Below are positions 1 to 21,210 of a stretch of DNA of 21,676 nucleotides, piece after piece. The notes under the pieces are model-generated. The model did not search any database, was not told the origin of the DNA, and worked only from the letters and a program-made list of their open reading frames with translations. Every line of letters starts with the position of its first letter. Within the stretch, counting starts at the first letter, position 1. The DNA is from a virus, in IMG/VR virus record IMGVR_UViG_3300018412_000059, positions 1-21,676 of that record; one strand, given 5' to 3'. Made by a program: the position numbers and the translations under genes.

Positions 1-477
1 TTTATAAGCATTATGTATAGCAGTATGACTTATATTATAAAAGTCCGCAGCTTCAATTATGGAATTCCATTCTTTTAAGAATTCACCTTTTTTATTAAAC
101 TGATTTATTTTAACACTATAAGAACTTCCACAGAGCCCTCCCTCTTTTTCATTATAAACATCTTTTCTTTTAATAAAAGCTTTGTTTACTATTTGCTTTT
201 CAAGAGAATATGCTTCTTCTGACGTGTCAAATATGTTTAATATTGTTCTTCTAAAATTTGAAGTACCATATTTTTTTACTGCATATTGGAATGTTGTTTG
301 AGGCTTGTTATAAGAAGATGGATTTGTTATTACGACTCCACATCCTATATATCCATCAAAAATATCAGGGTTTTCACACCCATGAACTCCGATATAGATA
401 TTGTTATTTACTAAATTGATTGTCTGATAAACAATGTATTTCATTTTATACTTTTTTAAGTTAGTTTCCTTTTCCAT
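1..477 (-). CDS. GIY-YIG homing endonuclease with NUMOD-like tail (3' end outside window)
   Basis: The reading frame opens at an ATG at 477 and stays open for 159 codons to the window edge, so its C-terminus is missing. The N-terminal nuclease domain has the GIY-YIG pattern: YIVYQTI at residues 14-20, IYIG at 27-30, a second DGYIGCG at 41-47, FRR around 75-77 and a likely catalytic Glu in SLEKQIV near residue 93. Residues 123-159 (INQFNKKGEF then EAADFYNIS) resemble a NUMOD1/IENR-type DNA-binding repeat. Such enzymes cut an intronless allele and drive intron homing. The gene sits just after the R element of a group I intron core that interrupts the capsid gene, so it is an intron-borne homing endonuclease rather than a phage housekeeping gene. 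I see no promoter of its own. Confidence 0.88.
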   Translation of the reverse strand, partial: MEKETNLKKYKMKYIVYQTINLVNNNIYIGVHGCENPDIFDGYIGCGVVITNPSSYNKPQTTFQYAVKKYGTSNFRRTILNIFDTSEEAYSLEKQIVNKAFIKRKDVYNEKEGGLCGSSYSVKINQFNKKGEFLKEWNSIIEAADFYNISHTAIHNAYK

Positions 478-664
478 CTATTTAAAGATGTACTCCCTTC
501 CGGGATAGTCGTTGAACCTTCTCAAGTACTACATTAAAATGTTTGTACACTCTTGAGCTTGGCTGCTGATTGTCCTATAAATAAATTCATAAAACTTATA
601 GGATTTTCCAGCAATTAAAAAACTTTTTCGAACAGCTTTAAGCTGCAAGGAGCAATATTTCTTT
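1..664 (-). ncRNA. Group I self-splicing intron in the capsid gene (5' part; 3' end outside window)
   Basis: Read on the minus strand, the three classic core elements appear in order. P is AATTGCTGGAAA near 605-616, Q is CAATCAGCAGCC at 561-572, and R is GGTTCAACGACTATCC at about 503-518. P4 pairs GCTG with CAGC. P5 is TCCTATAA with TTATAGGA. P6 includes CTCAAG with CTTGAG. After P7 5' there is a small TCCC-GGAA-GGGA hairpin, then the endonuclease gene, so the S element must lie beyond the left edge. A plausible 5' splice site is after AATCAGAGT (665): GAGU pairs with GCUC with a U.G at the junction, and a CAGCT/AGCTG hairpin follows as P2. The splice position is inferred; the core is clear. 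Confidence 0.87.
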
Positions 665-1216
665 ACTCTGATTTTTGACATTGCCTTCCTCACTCATTTC
701 AGGATGGGCATTACCAATCCAGCGAACTTTATCACCAGTGGCACATCCTGTCAGGTCGAACTCTTCGTCAGCGTTGTTTGTAACAAGCTGAACCTGATAT
801 TCAAAGGCATTATCTCTAACTCTATTTGGATTGGAAACTATAATACCTTGCTGGCGAGTTTTCTCGATTCTGAAAGTATCATATTTACCAAAATAAGCTT
901 CTTTAAAAACAAACGATACCGGAGCACCATACTTACCAGAAGAGGTAGGAGTAGACGCAAATTCAATACGTTTAATAAAGCTTTGCTCAATTTCCCATTC
1001 AATCACGAATGAGTTAACTGATTGAAATTTGTTTTTACTCGGTACGTCATAAATGTTCATCAATGCGTCCGTTAAAAACGAAGTTGTTAAATCGGGATTT
1101 TGTCTTGCAACAACACCTAAACGATGTGGTTTTGCACCTAAAAACTTAGAAAAATCCTCGACGGTTCTTGTCCCAAGTTCATTGGGACGAATAGTTGAAT
1201 AATTAGAAATAAGCAT
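665..1216 (-). CDS. Major capsid protein, N-terminal exon (crAss-like), interrupted by an intron
   Basis: The 184 codons kept here encode the start of what I take to be the HK97-fold major capsid protein. The N-terminus carries RPNELGTRTVEDF and KPHRLGVVARQNPDL, which look like a crAss-like capsid N-arm, and the gene follows directly on an acidic scaffold-like gene, 13 bases apart. Without splicing the frame runs only to a TAA at 638-640 and gives 192 residues, far short of the roughly 490-500 expected for this family. The frame enters a group I intron after ...EEGNVKNQS, so residues beyond about 184 are intron-encoded and not part of the mature protein. The rest of the gene must lie left of the window. 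Family assignment rests on sequence impression and gene order. A fragmentary unrelated structural protein is the alternative. Confidence 0.72.
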
Positions 1217-13821: not shown

Positions 13822-14088
13822 TTATTTGTATTTATATAATGTACCATATCTTACACGAGGGAATACTCGACTTCTTAATTCCGATTCTATTTTTATATAT
13901 AATTCTCCCATCGTTTCAGCCTCTATAAACATTTTCACAGGTCTGTCTGGGTTTCCTTGAGCCAATGAAATCATGTAAACCCCATTAACTTCATCTAGTT
14001 CCATCTTACCTATATATTCTTCTTCTTCTATATTTCTAAAATATGTTAGAATGAATTCTCGGATTTCGTTCGCTTGAGTAATTGTCAT
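13822..14088 (-). CDS. Small protein between terminase and portal, function unknown
   Basis: I chose the ATG at 14088 (MTITQANEIREFILTYF), giving 88 residues. The longer frame starting at 14151 would overlap the terminase C-terminus by 116 bases, whereas this start overlaps it by 53. The protein is helical at first (QANEIREFILTYFRNIEEEE), then beta-rich (YIGKMELDEVNGVYMISLAQ, VKMFIEAETMGELYIKIES), and ends basic (RVFPRVRYGTLYKYK). I do not recognise a family. Five bases separate it from the portal ATG, so it may be a head-assembly or packaging accessory protein, but this is inferred only from position. Confidence 0.6.
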   Translation of the reverse strand: MTITQANEIREFILTYFRNIEEEEYIGKMELDEVNGVYMISLAQGNPDRPVKMFIEAETMGELYIKIESELRSRVFPRVRYGTLYKYK

Positions 14089-15241
14089 ATTGCTTTTCGT
14101 AGCCAAAATATTTATAACCTCTACTATCTGTAAACCAACCAATCTCGCCATACTCTTCCCAGTCTGATTGCATCGGATTATCTTTTTTAACTACAATTCC
14201 CATCATATCTTCATCTGCTATTTCCGTATAAACCATAGCCAATATAATATCAAATCGACCTTTTGCTTCATATGAAAACTTTTGTAATTGCTCTAACATA
14301 TCTATAAACCATATATTAAAATAAAAGTCATCAACATATTGAGCAACGAGATCTAATCCGTGTTGTATCATCTTCTCAGACCCTGGAGTACCCCATAATG
14401 TAGAAGAACGCTTGATAGATGATTGAGCTGAAACAGGTCTTTTCATTAACATTTTATAAAGTAATTTTCGCTCTTGTAAATACATTCTAAATCCGATCTT
14501 AGTATCTTCTAAGTTTGCTTTACATCCATACCACCATAATATTTTAGCTGCATTTTCGTACGCTGTTCTTACATCCTTTGGTCTTTCTATATACATACAA
14601 ACATACTTGTTGCCTTCATTACCAAATGTCCTTTTCTTAATTGTTATAGCAAATTTAGAACCATCAGAACCTACAACGGAGTCTCCTTCTGCGTGGTCAA
14701 TAGAGTCGATTCCTCCGACATACAACCCTTCAAAAGGTTTTCCTATGTCATCTGTTAATGGCTCCTCTAATACAATGATATTACCACTAGGATCAGGTCT
14801 AAATGTAACTCCGATTATCTCTTCAGAATTATCTTTATAATTCCATGTCAGTTTCCCTACCTTTAACGTTTTTGGTGTATTTTTTAATATCTTAACTTCT
14901 GTTATCTGTTCTGTTATTTTTACCTGATCAAATTGATTCTCTCCTTGTTTAGACAATGCCTCTTCCGGATAAAAACAAAACTCAGAACAATATTCTAGCC
15001 AGTTTTGTGGTGTGCTTACTTTTTGAGCTCTAATCTTATTATAATGCTCTTTAGCTTTTTCCTGATTAGTAACGCCTCTACTATCCATTAAAGGAGGTAG
15101 ACAGCTATAAGCAGGAATAAAAAATCCAGTTAATCTATACTCTCCATTCTCAAAATGATTATGATAATAAGGGAGTATGTTAAAGTTTTGAGGATTTAAA
15201 AATATTTTTTCAAGACCCGCCAAGGCCGGTCCCGAGTCTCC
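14036..15241 (-). CDS. terL: Terminase large subunit, exon 2 (C-terminal ATPase end and nuclease)
   Basis: The 401 codons continue the large terminase after the intron. Splicing joins ...ILWGTG to GDSGPALAGLEKIF and rebuilds the GTGGD motif that ends the ATPase domain. The first Asp of the RNase H-like nuclease is probably in LYVGGIDSIDHAEGD (residues 175-189 of this exon), followed by FAITIKKRTFG and CMYIERPKD strands. Later parts include NLEDTKIGFRMYLQERK and DFYFNIWFIDMLEQLQKF. The nuclease cuts concatemeric DNA at start and end of packaging. Read alone, the frame could begin at a TTG at 15244, but that codon lies in the intron's last bases and is not a real start. The spliced product has 697 residues. 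Confidence 0.9.
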   Translation of the reverse strand, partial: GDSGPALAGLEKIFLNPQNFNILPYYHNHFENGEYRLTGFFIPAYSCLPPLMDSRGVTNQEKAKEHYNKIRAQKVSTPQNWLEYCSEFCFYPEEALSKQGENQFDQVKITEQITEVKILKNTPKTLKVGKLTWNYKDNSEEIIGVTFRPDPSGNIIVLEEPLTDDIGKPFEGLYVGGIDSIDHAEGDSVVGSDGSKFAITIKKRTFGNEGNKYVCMYIERPKDVRTAYENAAKILWWYGCKANLEDTKIGFRMYLQERKLLYKMLMKRPVSAQSSIKRSSTLWGTPGSEKMIQHGLDLVAQYVDDFYFNIWFIDMLEQLQKFSYEAKGRFDIILAMVYTEIADEDMMGIVVKKDNPMQSDWEEYGEIGWFTDSRGYKYFGYEKQYDNYSSERNPRIHSNIF

Positions 15242-15427
15242 CAATTGTGTTACCCATATGGCTTTTTATCCATATGTTCTTATATTTGAATTCATATAAG
15301 TTCAGCATATATTTTCACCCGTCCTGGGTGCAGAGCACTCGTGGATGCATTATATTTATTCAGCATCTATGCGTTACACTGATCTTTCTCCTTTCGAAAT
15401 AGAAAGATTTAGCACGGTATCAGCATC

Positions 15428-16288
15428 TCAGCTTTCACCGTTTTTGCTCTGTCGTAATCTTGAATTTTCCAATTCAAGACGGCAAAAATTTTCAAAAACA
15501 TTATATTTCCTATTCATGTAAATATTGGAATTTTCGTATATAAATCTAGCGTTTAGTCTTGCCTTAAAAGCTGAATATTTTATCACATGTATTTTATTGT
15601 CTTTCTTTTCATATACAGAAGAATGACGTGGAAGATATTCATCCATTTTGTTTAAAAACATTTCAGAACCACAAAAGCTTAAATGCTCTAGCATCCTATT
15701 TTTATTTTTAACTAAATAAACACCTAATGAACCATCCCCATCGCAATATCCTCGAATAAAGTCTTTTATAAATTCTTTTCTTGAGAATATAGATTCATCA
15801 GGGAATACGACAGTTAATGACTTTCTTGGGGTACATCCATAATTATTTAATGTTTCCCACAAATGCTTATTTCTTACAGAATAATGAACAGCTTGATGCC
15901 CATTTGATTCTGCATATCTATAATTGCCTTCATCATTAAAAAAACTAGTCAATTTCATTAAATGATCTTCATCTTTTTTTGACAACCTAACTTCAAAGCG
16001 ATATCCATTATTGGATATACATCCATCCGCATATATGAATCCAAGCCAATAGGCTTTTTCTTCTGTATCAATATTGTCAAAAATATTTTCATTTATTCTT
16101 GACAGATTTTGATAATTTATAACTTCAATTCCTTTATTTTTTAAAATTTTAGAAATAACTTGTCTTCTAACACCATATTTGTTTTGCAATTGAGTAAGAC
16201 TAATGCTTCCTTTTTTAGAATTTATATATTCTTCAGCCGCAATTAAAGCCATCTCCAGTTTTTGTACATTTTCCATTTTATTACGCAT
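15428..16288 (-). CDS. LAGLIDADG homing endonuclease, intron-encoded
   Basis: The 286-aa protein carries two LAGLIDADG helices, WLGFIYADG at residues 81-89 and FIRGYCDGDG at 177-186, each ending in an acidic residue that binds the catalytic metal. It can thus act as a monomer with two half-domains. A helix-turn-helix (LTQLQNKYGVRRQVISKIL, 31-49) precedes them and probably adds DNA contacts. It would cut intronless terL near GTGGD and spread the intron. A -7-like box lies 15 bases before the ATG at 16288; given the short leader, the Met at residue 5 (16276) may be the real start. The last 11 codons overlap the ribozyme core helices P3, P4 and P5. A maturase role in splicing is possible but not shown. 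Confidence 0.9.
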   Translation of the reverse strand: MRNKMENVQKLEMALIAAEEYINSKKGSISLTQLQNKYGVRRQVISKILKNKGIEVINYQNLSRINENIFDNIDTEEKAYWLGFIYADGCISNNGYRFEVRLSKKDEDHLMKLTSFFNDEGNYRYAESNGHQAVHYSVRNKHLWETLNNYGCTPRKSLTVVFPDESIFSRKEFIKDFIRGYCDGDGSLGVYLVKNKNRMLEHLSFCGSEMFLNKMDEYLPRHSSVYEKKDNKIHVIKYSAFKARLNARFIYENSNIYMNRKYNVFENFCRLELENSRLRQSKNGES

Positions 16289-16302
16289 TTAATATTAAGA
16301 TG

Positions 16303-16336
16303 CAAATATACAAAAAATATTATAAAAAAAAACAAA
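16303..16336 (-). promoter_or_regulatory. Promoter-like boxes for the intron-borne endonuclease
   Basis: On the minus strand TATATTTG (16303-16310) matches the Bacteroidetes -7 consensus, with TTTG (16333-16336) 22 bases upstream, slightly longer than the usual 19-21. The context GTATATTTGC is the same as at the capsid promoter near 2640. It would start transcription near 16296, inside the intron, and allow expression of the endonuclease without splicing. AT-rich sequence makes chance matches possible. Confidence 0.5.
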
Positions 16337-16357
16337 CAGGTGGAGAAAATGTTATTC

Positions 16358-17245
16358 ACCGGTTCCCCAGAGTATTCTTGTTCCGATCTTTTTCCCAAGC
16401 AAATTTACTAGCGCTTCAGATTTATTATACACAGTGACTAATCCATTAAAAGAACCTGATTCTTCGAATAGTAAATATTCCAAACGAACACCTCTTAATT
16501 TTCTTGAATTGTCTACAACCTGTCCAAATACCTCAGACATCCATCCAGACTCCTGACCTTGTTTATCTAGCACAGAAGCTCTTCTCCACATTGGCTCTTT
16601 TTTCTTTTGCGTCAAATGCCTTAAGCCTCCTTCTGTTTCTTGGTTAAGAGTTTCAAGGCAATCCCATACTTTCTGTAATACACCATTTTTCAATAAGTAA
16701 TTCTCAGCAGAGGCAATATACATTGTTTTTGAGTTTTGCACAACTGAGTATGTGCAGGCCCCTATGCTAGCTCCAATCTCCGAAAAACCGACTCCACGAC
16801 TTTTCAGAGCGCAAGCATCTTTTTCTAACAATTCGCACATTTCTAAATAATGAAAATACTCATAGTGTTTAGCCCAAAAATTAGGATTGCTATATTCACG
16901 GCCAGAACCTGCTTTGCCAACATTATTCGCATTAAGAAGCTTATAAAAGTTTAAAAAGAAATAATGATGGCCTGTTATCCTATAACCGTTAACGCTATAG
17001 CCATTTTTGCATTTATCATATTCTCCAAGCCAAAAGTTTTTAAAAGCATAAGAGCCAGGAGGGTTAGGACAATGTACTCCTTTTTTATTTTTATAATCAA
17101 CAACCTCCATAAACCATGAAGGGTCAAAGTCTAATCCTTCCGTTTCTGTTATTGGTCTATACCCAGTTAATTCATAAGATAGACTAGGGTCAAAAAAGTC
17201 TATCTGATCATCAATCTTTACGTCCCAATCTTTAAATTCATTCAT
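16358..17245 (-). CDS. terL: Terminase large subunit, exon 1 (ATPase domain)
   Basis: This exon encodes the N-terminal 296 residues of the packaging motor ATPase, which docks on the portal and pumps DNA. The Walker A-type motif is KSRGVGFSE (148-156), a deviant form as in other crAss-like terminases. Walker B is EYLLFEESG (256-264) with the catalytic Glu, and the exon ends at ILWGTG (291-296), the coupling motif. After this the frame enters the intron and meets a TAA at 16352-16354 within three codons. The guide-sequence pairing and the restored GTGGD motif fix the splice site, apart from a one-base ambiguity because both sides carry G; the mRNA is the same either way. The gene begins five bases after the preceding gene. 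Confidence 0.92.
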
Positions 17246-18032: not shown

Positions 18033-18404
18033 TTATTCATCAATAAATATACATTTAATATTCTGTTCACTAATATGTCTTACCCTTGGCATAAGTTCTT
18101 CATCTTCATCAAATTTAATTGGCATTGGCAACATAGATCGGATATCATACATAACCTCATCTCCGGGTTTAACCATTTTAACTTCTGGCCCAACCGCAAT
18201 AACCTCTCCAATTCCCATTATACTAGAAGCTACATTGTACTCTTCAATTCCATCATCAAAAGATGATCCATTAGCTCTTATGATACCAGCTTCATTTTTA
18301 ACTGGAAAATATCTAGAGCTATCATTCAAATCTCTTACTACTACGTGGTTATACAATGGAGTAACCTTTTTACCTTTTACTAAATTTTTCATAATCATTA
18401 CCAT
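18033..18404 (-). CDS. GroES-like co-chaperonin (phage-encoded)
   Basis: The 123-aa protein follows the GroES plan. VTPLYNHVVVRD (14-25) matches the first strand (IRPLHDRVIVKR in E. coli). EAGIIRANG (38-46) lies where the mobile loop with its hydrophobic tripeptide binds GroEL. GIGEVIAVGPEVKMVKPGDE (64-83) matches the GEVLAVG...VKVGD region. HISEQNIKCIFID (110-122) matches the C-terminal strand. It is longer than the usual 95-97 residues, mainly because of insertions around the mobile loop and after residue 85. It would cap a chaperonin ring, presumably the one encoded two genes upstream. Overlap with the preceding gene is seven bases; the Met at residue 5 is an alternative start without overlap. 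Confidence 0.85.
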   Translation of the reverse strand: MVMIMKNLVKGKKVTPLYNHVVVRDLNDSSRYFPVKNEAGIIRANGSSFDDGIEEYNVASSIMGIGEVIAVGPEVKMVKPGDEVMYDIRSMLPMPIKFDEDEELMPRVRHISEQNIKCIFIDE

Positions 18405-18634
18405 TTATTTAATATACATTTCTCATCAAACAATCTTGCTTTAGCATCTAATCTACATCCACAACCGTGGATTATTTTATCATCTTTATTGATATACTTA
18501 GCTTTGTCACATAAATGTCCTATTTTTGTGTTTGTATACAATGGACACTCTTTACATATTCCTATTCTATATAAATATAAATCTTGTTCTTTTTTTAAGA
18601 CTTCATTTATATGACCTTTAATAATATTAAACAC
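18398..18634 (-). CDS. Six-cysteine small protein, probable zinc-binding
   Basis: The 78-aa protein has cysteines at 27, 30, 42, 58, 60 and 73 in the pattern ICKECPLY...HLC...HGCGCRLDAKAR...EKCILNKW. The C-x2-C and C-x-C pairs suggest a zinc ribbon or similar metal site. Proteins with CKxCPL...GCGCxLxxKxR...KCxxxKW occur in several phages, from memory, without an established function. It is placed between groEL and the GroES-like gene, overlapping groEL by 8 bases and the next by 7, so it is likely translated with them. A link to chaperonin action is conjecture. Confidence 0.7.
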   Translation of the reverse strand: MFNIIKGHINEVLKKEQDLYLYRIGICKECPLYTNTKIGHLCDKAKYINKDDKIIHGCGCRLDAKARLFDEKCILNKW

Positions 18635-20216
18635 AGCTTATAGCGCATTCGGTAGTTAAAAATAAAGTAGAAATAGATACTGCATTTTGGAATGAAACCT
18701 TCAATGACTTAGCAGGATCAATTACTCCAAACTTTATTAAATTTCCATATCTGCCACTCTTGGCATTATACCCATAATTAAGCGTTCTTTTTGAAAGTAT
18801 TTCCTCTACAATCTCAGTAGCCGGTAAATCAGCATTAATTAGAAGTTGACTAATAGGAGCTTGTAAAGCTTCATTTATAACATTCCATCCGGCTTTTTCG
18901 TTATCAGAGAATAAAGTCTTATTCTTTAACAGTTCCACTTTAGCTTTTAAGAACACAACGCCTCCGCCAGGAACGACTCCATCCTCTAATGCTGCACGAG
19001 TAGCACACAAGGCATCATCAATTCTATCCATTTTTTCTTTAAGCTCTATCTCCGTTTTAGCCCCAACATATATAGTAGCCACTCCATCAGAGAAACGAGA
19101 TAATCTTTCCTTTAATAGATTGCTATCAAACTCATTCTTTGAAGCGGAAATTAAACTTTTAAGAATATTAATCCGTTGCAAAACTCTATCGTTTTGGTTT
19201 TTACAATATACAATTGTCGAATCCTTACCGACAATAACCTTTTCAGCATAACCAAATTTGCCTTCTTTCTTTATAATACTATCAACGCCTCCATTGGTAA
19301 GAATAGCGATATCTTCCATGGAGTCTTTCCTATTCTGTCCAAATTCGGGACCTTTTATAACACATAAGTTAAGATCACCCCGTACTTTGTTAATGACAAA
19401 TGTAGAAAACGCTTCTCCAGTTACATCTTCAGCAATAACTAATAATGATTTAATATTCTTGTTGTTTTTCATTAATGCAGCGAAGTTGTTTAATATAGAA
19501 ATAGCATCAATAGACTTTTCTATTTTATCGTCAGTGATATAAATAACAACTCCTTCTAGGATGCATTCCTGAGTAGCGTCATTTGTTATAAAATAAGGAG
19601 ATAAATATCCTCGCTCTTTAATATTGAAACCTTCAACAGTTTTTAAATAAGTCTCATTATTATTAGAAGACTCTACTCTAACTGCTCCATATTTACCAAC
19701 CATTGAAATAGCATTGCTAATAATATCACCAAGATATTCATCATTATTAGCAGAAATAGTGGCTACGTCTTTTACCATTTTAATATCATCATCTAAACTG
19801 ATAGACGATTTAGATATAAAATCGGTTACTATTTGAGACGCTTTTTCTATCCCTTTTCTTAGATCAGTTGGATTAACAGATCCATTCTGCAAAACATTCA
19901 ACCCCTCTTTTATAATAGCTTGAGCTAAAACAACTGATGTAGTTGTAGCGTCTCCGACTTCTTGACAGGTTTTATCAGCTACATCCTGTATAAGTCTAGC
20001 TCCCATAGATTGGTACTTTTCTTTTAATATAATCTCTTTAGCGACCGTTACACCGTCTTTAGTGATATGGGGAGACCCATTATATTTATCTATAATAACG
20101 TTCTTACCTTGAGGCCCTAAAGTGCTTTTAACGGCATCTGATACAATATCAATACCAATCTTAATCTCTTTTTTGGCATTTAAACCAAATAATACATTTT
20201 CATTAATCATATACAT
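18627..20216 (-). CDS. groEL: GroEL-type chaperonin (phage-encoded, intact)
   Basis: The 529-aa protein is a full-length group I chaperonin, expected to form a seven-subunit ring that folds proteins with ATP. Equatorial and ATP motifs are present: LGPQGKNVI (33-41), ITKDGVTVAKEI (51-62) with Asp54, and EVGDATTTSVV (86-96) with Asp89, where the usual GDGTTT is GDATTT. Asp401 in DDALCATRAALEDGV corresponds to the hydrolytic Asp398 of E. coli, followed by VVPGGG. Apical substrate-binding residues survive in ERGYLSPYF (201-209), and VIAEDVTGEAF is typical. The C-terminus ends at ECAISCV without a GGM tail. Sequence differs a lot from host GroEL but keeps catalytic positions, so it is probably active. 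The gene follows the nuclease by 7 bases; the Met at residue 3 may be the actual start. Confidence 0.96.
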   Translation of the reverse strand: MYMINENVLFGLNAKKEIKIGIDIVSDAVKSTLGPQGKNVIIDKYNGSPHITKDGVTVAKEIILKEKYQSMGARLIQDVADKTCQEVGDATTTSVVLAQAIIKEGLNVLQNGSVNPTDLRKGIEKASQIVTDFISKSSISLDDDIKMVKDVATISANNDEYLGDIISNAISMVGKYGAVRVESSNNNETYLKTVEGFNIKERGYLSPYFITNDATQECILEGVVIYITDDKIEKSIDAISILNNFAALMKNNKNIKSLLVIAEDVTGEAFSTFVINKVRGDLNLCVIKGPEFGQNRKDSMEDIAILTNGGVDSIIKKEGKFGYAEKVIVGKDSTIVYCKNQNDRVLQRINILKSLISASKNEFDSNLLKERLSRFSDGVATIYVGAKTEIELKEKMDRIDDALCATRAALEDGVVPGGGVVFLKAKVELLKNKTLFSDNEKAGWNVINEALQAPISQLLINADLPATEIVEEILSKRTLNYGYNAKSGRYGNLIKFGVIDPAKSLKVSFQNAVSISTLFLTTECAISCV

Positions 20217-20223
20217 TTACATT

Positions 20224-21150
20224 TTACATCATAATAACATTTTTTTGTTTATCTAAATATTTTTGTTTCCATAAATCATGAACTAAAGCTTCGATTTCTT
20301 TTTCTCTATAAACCAAATCGAATCTAGTTTCTTCACCTTCTCCTCTTGGGTTATGTAATAACACTAATTGTTTTATTTCAAAATTAGGATTAACCTTTTT
20401 TAACATCCAAGCGTAAAAAGAAAGCTGTAATTCATAGTGATTATATGTGGTATCATCTATGTGAGTCAAAGGATAAAACATCCTTTTAGTTCTATTAGTC
20501 GACTTATTAAAATAAGCTTTCTTATCAATACCGTTTTTATTACTTTTATAATCATATATTGATATCTCATTGCCTTTTTTAATAAGCAAATCTACTTGGC
20601 CTGCAATATTTAGCAACCCATCATCAGAATGATAATAAACTAAATACTCTGGCAATATAGCATTTTCTCTTGATAAATCCCAATTATGTTTTTCACATTG
20701 GAATTCGGTCTCGTCACCTATTAGATTAGGTATTTTAATGGTTGGTTTATTATAAAATTCCAACTCACGTTTTAAATGATAAGCAGTACCTATCTCACAA
20801 GACTCTCTTCTATTTGTTTCATATTCTAATAGTATTCCTCTTTTTATATCAAAGAATAGATTCTTGTCTATATCAACTAAATCCAAATAATCATCTTTCC
20901 ATTTTTTAGTGTTTAATAGAGTTTTTCTTATTCCACTGTTTTTAAAGGTTTTTATTCCAAATATTTTTTCTATAGCCTTATAAGAAGACCAAAAGTCATC
21001 ATCAAACTTCTCATGATATTTTCCTATAGCAGTTGTAACAGATAAGTATTCTATATTTGGATATTTCACGTTCCCATACTTATGAGATTCTTCTATAAAA
21101 TAAACATCTCCATTTATTTTATCATAAGACAATTCATTGTTCATATTCAT
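20224..21150 (-). CDS. PD-(D/E)XK nuclease family protein (Cas4/RecB-like)
   Basis: The 308-aa protein shows the PD-(D/E)XK nuclease core. A histidine motif GTAYHLK lies at 121-127, an upstream Glu in LPEYLVYY near 168, the first metal-binding Asp in AGQVDLLI (Asp187), and the D-x-K pair in IYDYKSNK (Asp200, Lys202). The RecB-type helix motif is ELQLSFYAWML (220-230) with Gln222. Such enzymes act as DNA exonucleases in recombination, DNA end processing or replication, and are common in crAss-like phages. It is the first gene after the divergent promoter region, leading the operon that includes the chaperonins and terminase. Lack of cysteines for an Fe-S cluster argues against a true Cas4. Whether it serves packaging or recombination is open. 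Confidence 0.85.
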   Translation of the reverse strand: MNMNNELSYDKINGDVYFIEESHKYGNVKYPNIEYLSVTTAIGKYHEKFDDDFWSSYKAIEKIFGIKTFKNSGIRKTLLNTKKWKDDYLDLVDIDKNLFFDIKRGILLEYETNRRESCEIGTAYHLKRELEFYNKPTIKIPNLIGDETEFQCEKHNWDLSRENAILPEYLVYYHSDDGLLNIAGQVDLLIKKGNEISIYDYKSNKNGIDKKAYFNKSTNRTKRMFYPLTHIDDTTYNHYELQLSFYAWMLKKVNPNFEIKQLVLLHNPRGEGEETRFDLVYREKEIEALVHDLWKQKYLDKQKNVIMM

Positions 21151-21178
21151 ATTAATTATTTTTTAATTATATTTGCTG

Positions 21179-21210
21179 CAAAAATAACACAATTTTAACA
21201 ACAAAACAAA
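21179..21210 (-). promoter_or_regulatory. Bacteroidetes-type promoter for the nuclease-chaperonin-terminase operon
   Basis: On the minus strand TATTTTTG (21179-21186) matches the -7 box TAnnTTTG. TTTG (21207-21210) lies exactly 20 bases upstream as -33 box. Transcription would begin near 21172, about 20 bases before the nuclease ATG at 21150. The region lies between divergent genes. This is the best promoter match in the window. Confidence 0.65.

Follow-up and report, generated by a model that had tools for sequence, protein, structure and literature searches.

Group I introns that interrupt terL, the gene for the large terminase subunit, have been described in several phages. The terL intron of the Lactobacillus phage JCL1032 (L013, EU409559) is reported to be self-splicing (Riipinen and Alatossava 2004, as cited in PMC6669764), and splicing has been shown for the terL introns of the Bastillevirinae phages SIOphi and phiAGATE (PMC11878797). 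According to Yutin et al. (2021, PMC7886860), group I introns with LAGLIDADG endonucleases are abundant in crAss-like phages, where they occur in core genes. A mycobacteriophage intein site, TerL6-f, lies in the putative terminase coupling motif (C-motif; PMC5050341). In phage T4, I-TevI represses its own gene through a copy of its homing site over its own promoter (PMC2988022). Here we describe the terL gene of the virus record IMGVR_UViG_3300018412_000059 from IMG/VR, of which positions 1 to 21,676 were analysed (21,676 nucleotides; hereafter the window). This gene almost certainly carries a mobile group I intron at the codons for GTG|GD, with a GCCG internal guide and homing by a LAGLIDADG enzyme. 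Neither phage terL introns nor introns of crAss-like phages are new in themselves; our contribution is the exact site, a model of the intron family and the correct guide.

The gene lies on the minus strand, and its parts are as follows (ORF, open reading frame).

16358 to 17245, minus strand: terL exon 1, residues 1-296, ending ...WGTG; PHROG 6681 terminase large subunit, 3e-30, profile 79-333
15242 to 16357, minus strand: group I intron, 1,116 nt; its first base is G, after exon U, and its last base is G
14036 to 15241, minus strand: terL exon 2, from GDSGPALAGL to the stop; PHROG 6681, 5e-40, profile 342-731
Junction of the joined exons: GGAACCGGTGGAGACTCGG
15428 to 16288, minus strand: LAGLIDADG homing endonuclease ORF, 286 aa, motifs GFIYADG and FIRGYCDGDG

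Exon 1 ends TGG GGA ACC GGT at 16358, and exon 2 begins GGA GAC TCG GGA at 15241, directly after the terminal G of the intron (...CACAAUUG|GGAGAC). A first-pass annotation of the sequence had proposed that terL is split exactly here; its coordinates are exact, since the exons fuse in frame to WGTG|GDSGPALAGL and form a single frame of 697 codons plus stop, the product of which matches PHROG 6681 at E 1.8e-76. Both halves of the gene are intact and the exons contain no internal stops. The same annotation also claimed that the packaging motor depends on RNA splicing, and the frame implies as much, because unspliced terL meets a stop one codon past the junction (GTGE*); splicing itself is predicted. 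Residues 294-298 lie about 33 residues past E261-E262 (Walker B region), which we take to be the usual place of the terminase C-motif. The interruption falls in GTG|GD, a glycine-rich ATPase motif that occupies the position of the ATPase coupling motif. A search of solved structures using TerL returned no match.

Comparison with intronless terL genes, which had been suggested as a check, confirmed the junction. All 80 scored relatives (L103-L181 and L012; L numbers denote fetched loci) align unbroken across residues 296/297, including L012 at 47% identity, and none of them has an intron-sized insertion; because the loci were ranked on quality of match, a criterion that favours genes without interruption, they yield no frequency. 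In all 80 the first two codon bases for G294, T295, G296 and G297 are invariant, as is GTGG, bearing out the earlier statement that the insertion fell in a conserved ATPase motif. The same base is occupied by an intron in at least 14 further contigs, in which terL resumes at residue 297 (scan pattern: intron 3' end, then GGN GAY NNN GG), and a second pattern scan revealed a sister site six bases upstream, where exon ...GG(C/T)GGU| is followed by ACNGGNGGNGA. Introns of 277 nt with no endonuclease gene occur at the same base in L185 and L192, and one of about 249 nt, also endonuclease-less, six bases upstream in L199; in L193 and L196 an endonuclease remnant is left in an intron at this terL site or its neighbour. 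These endonuclease-less and remnant forms illustrate the loss stage in the homing cycle.

At the DNA level, the last 220 bases at the 3' end of the intron resemble introns found across many phages in terL and in the genes for the capsid, primase, ATPase and tape measure. A structural alignment was made of 18 such 3' regions (the window and 17 others; 249 columns), in which the JCL1032 terL intron also falls, and a structure written from the group I model was tested on it, comprising P3, P4, P5, P6, P6a, P7 with its bulge, P7.1, P8, P9 and P9.1. In the window the elements are placed as follows.

15458 to 15479, minus strand: P2 hairpin, UCUUGAAUU-GGAA-AAUUCAAGA, from the minimum-energy fold and also in relatives
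15446 to 15451 (5' strand) with 15336-15331 (3' strand), minus strand: P3; 98.1% of cells paired, two-sided changes at 4/6 pairs
15441-15437 with 15418-15414, minus strand: P4, enclosing P5, from the structural alignment
15433-15431 with 15424-15422, minus strand: P5, within P4, from the structural alignment
15378 to 15413, minus strand: P6 and P6a; two-sided changes at 9/10 pairs
15374 and 15372-15368 with 15309-15304, minus strand: P7, with bulged base 15373, enclosing P7.1, the P3 3' strand and P8
15316 to 15330, minus strand: P8 hairpin CACCC/GGGUG, from the structural alignment
15279 to 15300, minus strand: P9 hairpin; two-sided changes at 5/7 pairs
15255 to 15276, minus strand: P9.1 hairpin with conserved GAUAAAAAGC; two-sided changes at 6/7 pairs

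Across the 54 proposed core pairs, 97.7% of 960 cells are paired, as against 71.6% with shuffled partners and 29-44% with partners slid by 1-3 columns, and two-sided changes occur at 39 of the 54. P7 is paired in every cell (100%), with two-sided changes at two pairs, one of them A-U/G-C in a ratio of 9:9. In P7, the pair of columns 91 and 185 varies as A-U/G-C/C-G, column 92 is the bulge and the G-C pair of columns 93 and 184 is invariant; this invariant G-C adjoining the bulge is the guanosine site. A covariance model, R1, built from the 17 relatives with the window held out, matches the window at 15452-15242 (220.8 bits, E 9.8e-70); the match ends at the 3' splice site and marks no broken core pair. 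Across the fetched loci R1 gives 81 matches. The minimum-energy fold of the single sequence has a z of -5.8 and recovers P2-P6 and P7.1-P9.1. Given the held-out model, the covariation and the fold, the class is therefore settled as a group I intron, in agreement with the first-pass annotation. The subgroup, given P7.1, we take to be probably IA. An early P7 built by hand from T4 td-like motifs was dropped, the alignment having shown P7.1 between P7 and P3.

Both LAGLIDADG motifs are present in the endonuclease and its ORF is intact. It matches Pfam LAGLIDADG_3 (1.7e-5), PHROG 4645 endonuclease (9e-58) and PDB 2dch (2e-5), and the search with it yielded 80 loci. A tree of 40 relatives groups all 12 enzymes of the two neighbouring terL sites (96/91), separately from the enzymes of introns before Walker A lysines. 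Such site-specific descent fits the prediction of homing, and the same-site clade suggests that the predicted endonuclease may cut the intronless terL site.

The guide was located by comparison, and a different element had been proposed in its place; the sequences concerned are these.

15480 to 15483, minus strand: internal guide GCCG, pairing with exon CGGU (P1), with U.G at the splice site
15484 to 15488, minus strand: UUUUU, a weak candidate for the P10 strand, pairing with exon 2 GGAGA, proposed from its position and the UUCU of relatives
16335 to 16346, minus strand: UCUCCACCUGUU, the guide of the first-pass annotation; an inverted 11/12 copy of the joined-exon site and a proposed operator
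16302 to 16336, minus strand: Bacteroidota-type promoter pattern TTTG-N-TATATTTGC, before the endonuclease ORF

In every relative with the same or the sister site whose junction is clear, P2 is immediately preceded by a short sequence, UUCUGCC.. or UUUGCCGC... The guide is located within the last codons of the endonuclease gene, which places the gene in the P1 loop, and the 3' end of the ORF also overlaps P2 and the 5' strands of P3, P4 and P5. The pair at the splice site is U.G in 11/11 distinct rows. At exon position -4, which in the terL site is a third codon position and silent, the exon and guide bases change together as C-G, U-A, A-U and G-C in 10 of the 11 rows, and the number of cells with two-sided changes was reached by none of 500 shuffles. 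L185 and L192, which have no endonuclease gene, retain only the pre-P2 guide. Judged by this comparison of sequences, the guide of the family is the pre-P2 sequence, in the window GCCG at 15483-15480.

The alternative is a group I intron whose true P1/P10 guide is the element at 16346-16335. As claimed in the first-pass annotation, which took it to be both P1 and P10 and to confirm the junction, UCUCCACCUGUU can form Watson-Crick pairs with AACCGGU|GGAGA at 11 of its 12 positions, spanning both exons in the right order. No shuffle of the first 60 nt (0/2000) matched this when only Watson-Crick pairs were counted; with G-U allowed, p is 0.08, not clearly above chance. Related elements are found only in L023 (11/13, one G-U) and L186 (10/13), at the same place as in the window. 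They ignore the variable exon positions: position -4 is mismatched or in wobble, which is where the single mismatch of the window falls, and the splice-site pair is U-A, U.U or U.G across the three, where U.G is canonical. Most of the introns tested lack such an element, including the endonuclease-less L185, the 3' part of which is nearly that of L023, and in the window it lies about 850 nt from P2. Since the pre-P2 guide is conserved, covaries and is the sole guide in L185 and L192, the role given to UCUCCACCUGUU was not upheld, and we regard it as very unlikely.

Several points weigh against the reading of a functional, mobile intron with the GCCG guide. P1 of the window is limited to four pairs (CGGU/GCCG), positions -5 and -6 being mismatched, and the proposed P10 (UUUUU/GGAGA) consists solely of A-U and G-U pairs. 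L184 breaks the covariation at -4, and the exon end of L039, which was excluded from the guide pair count, has no U. The only other copy of this particular element (L011/L102) matches the window at 100% identity over 6344 bases and is perhaps not independent, possibly coming from the same population; a scan for close relatives with exon 1 found the identical copy only. The case for splicing is built on sequence, with its chemistry, like homing, predicted from the family. Lastly, an Rfam scan, another suggested check, left the intron unmatched at gathering and permissive thresholds, where the family model found it; this silence is not evidence against group I, because the Rfam model (RF00028) also misses the JCL1032 terL intron. 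The short P1 would also suit a degenerate intron that has lost splicing and left terL inactive, and the remnants in L193 and L196 show that decay occurs; with every core pair of the window whole, stop-free exons and an intact endonuclease ORF, this is very unlikely. An intein or other in-frame protein insertion was also considered; in Delta-group crAss-like phages, inteins are frequent in TerL (PMC7886860). Every reading frame of the insertion contains stops (9, 26 and 44), its ORF has its own start, the RNA core is present and none of the relatives carries a comparable in-frame insertion at the site; an intein is ruled out by frame, and we put its probability at virtually nil. Phages do carry group II introns (PMC12350094), and an endonuclease gene could break terL as a freestanding element. 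Against both stand the group I core with its P7 pseudoknot and covariation, the perfect in-frame joining of the exons and the intact terL halves; the core structure rules them out, leaving them a minute chance.

The boundaries, core structure, guide, empty sites and intact endonuclease ORF of the preferred group I intron can all be read from the DNA, and a mechanism may be proposed. After transcription the core would fold into P3-P9 with the P3/P7 pseudoknot, and exon CGGU would pair with GCCG at 15483-15480, so that U.G falls on the 5' splice site. The attack on this site would come from exogenous guanosine; the freed exon 1 would next attack just beyond the intron's terminal G, and a continuous terL mRNA would result. 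The LAGLIDADG enzyme would cut intronless terL at the invariant site, and repair would copy the intron in.

The UCUCCACCUGUU element may have another role. Its opposite strand reads AACAGGTGGAGA, compared with AACCGGTGGAGA in the homing site, and it overlaps the TTTG of the promoter pattern by two bases. The pattern has two matches in the window, with 0.34 expected; the second (21178-21210, minus strand) stands right before a PD-(D/E)XK nuclease ORF (20224-21150). A sigma-70 scan of the 5' region found no minus-strand site. By analogy with I-TevI, the element at 16346-16335 could be a putative operator, an inverted homing-site copy over the -33 box, through which the LAGLIDADG enzyme would repress its own gene. 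We consider this unlikely, because only 12 bases match, the flanks differ and most relatives lack the element.

In NTPase genes, introns of the R1 family are often inserted immediately in front of the codon for the Walker A lysine (GG(N)|AAA, K[ST]; L028-L088, L013, L014); of 36 loci listed by hand, 21 have an exon 2 that starts K[ST]. The terL site GTG|GD looks like a variation on this target. A second terL intron, at residue 152/153 (RGV|GFSE, a P-loop-like region), is present in L005, L023, L024, L039 and L184, where terL has three exons and several of these introns match R1. In the terL of L005, L024, L039 and L040, in-frame stops at otherwise conserved positions point to possible stop-codon reassignment.

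The gene content of the window is that of a crAss-like phage: the portal belongs to PHROG 6547, a capsid exon has a weak Crass_capsid match and the GenBank relatives of TerL are mostly crAss-like phages. A GroEL-type chaperonin is encoded at 18627-20216 (minus strand; Pfam Cpn60_TCP1, 6e-63), with a small ORF nearby (18033-18404, minus strand) that has a weak GroES-like match. The capsid gene at the window edge comprises an exon at 638-1216 (minus strand), with a GIY-YIG endonuclease ORF at 1-477 (minus strand). A second group I intron at 442-674 (minus strand; Rfam RF00028, 53.8 bits) seems to split the major capsid protein gene.

The boundaries of the terL intron are fixed where Rfam annotation is silent, and the family covariance model finds it at E about 1e-69. 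This family, spread over many phages and often in glycine-rich NTPase motifs, explains the origin of split packaging genes in crAss-like phages, and correct full-length TerL proteins can be obtained for phylogeny. A striking guide-like complement in a single sequence can mislead, and only comparison reveals the wrong element.

Among the known systems, the crAss-like introns and inteins of Yutin et al. (2021, PMC7886860) do not, in the text consulted, include the GTG|GD site. SIOphi and phiAGATE differ in being Bacillus phages whose endonucleases are of other types. The proposed operator resembles that of I-TevI in T4 td (PMC2988022) in being a homing-site copy over the enzyme's own promoter, matching at 15/20 positions there and 11/12 here; I-TevI is a GIY-YIG enzyme, whereas here the enzyme is LAGLIDADG, the copy is inverted and the operator putative. 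TerL6-f shares with our locus a mobile element in the putative C-motif, but is removed by protein splicing, where here RNA would be spliced. The JCL1032 intron, like ours, is a group I intron in terL with the same R1-family core (70% identity over 131 nt); it differs in having no endonuclease ORF, in an exon 2 that starts KTTL, at the Walker A lysine and not at GTG|GD, and in the phylum of its host.
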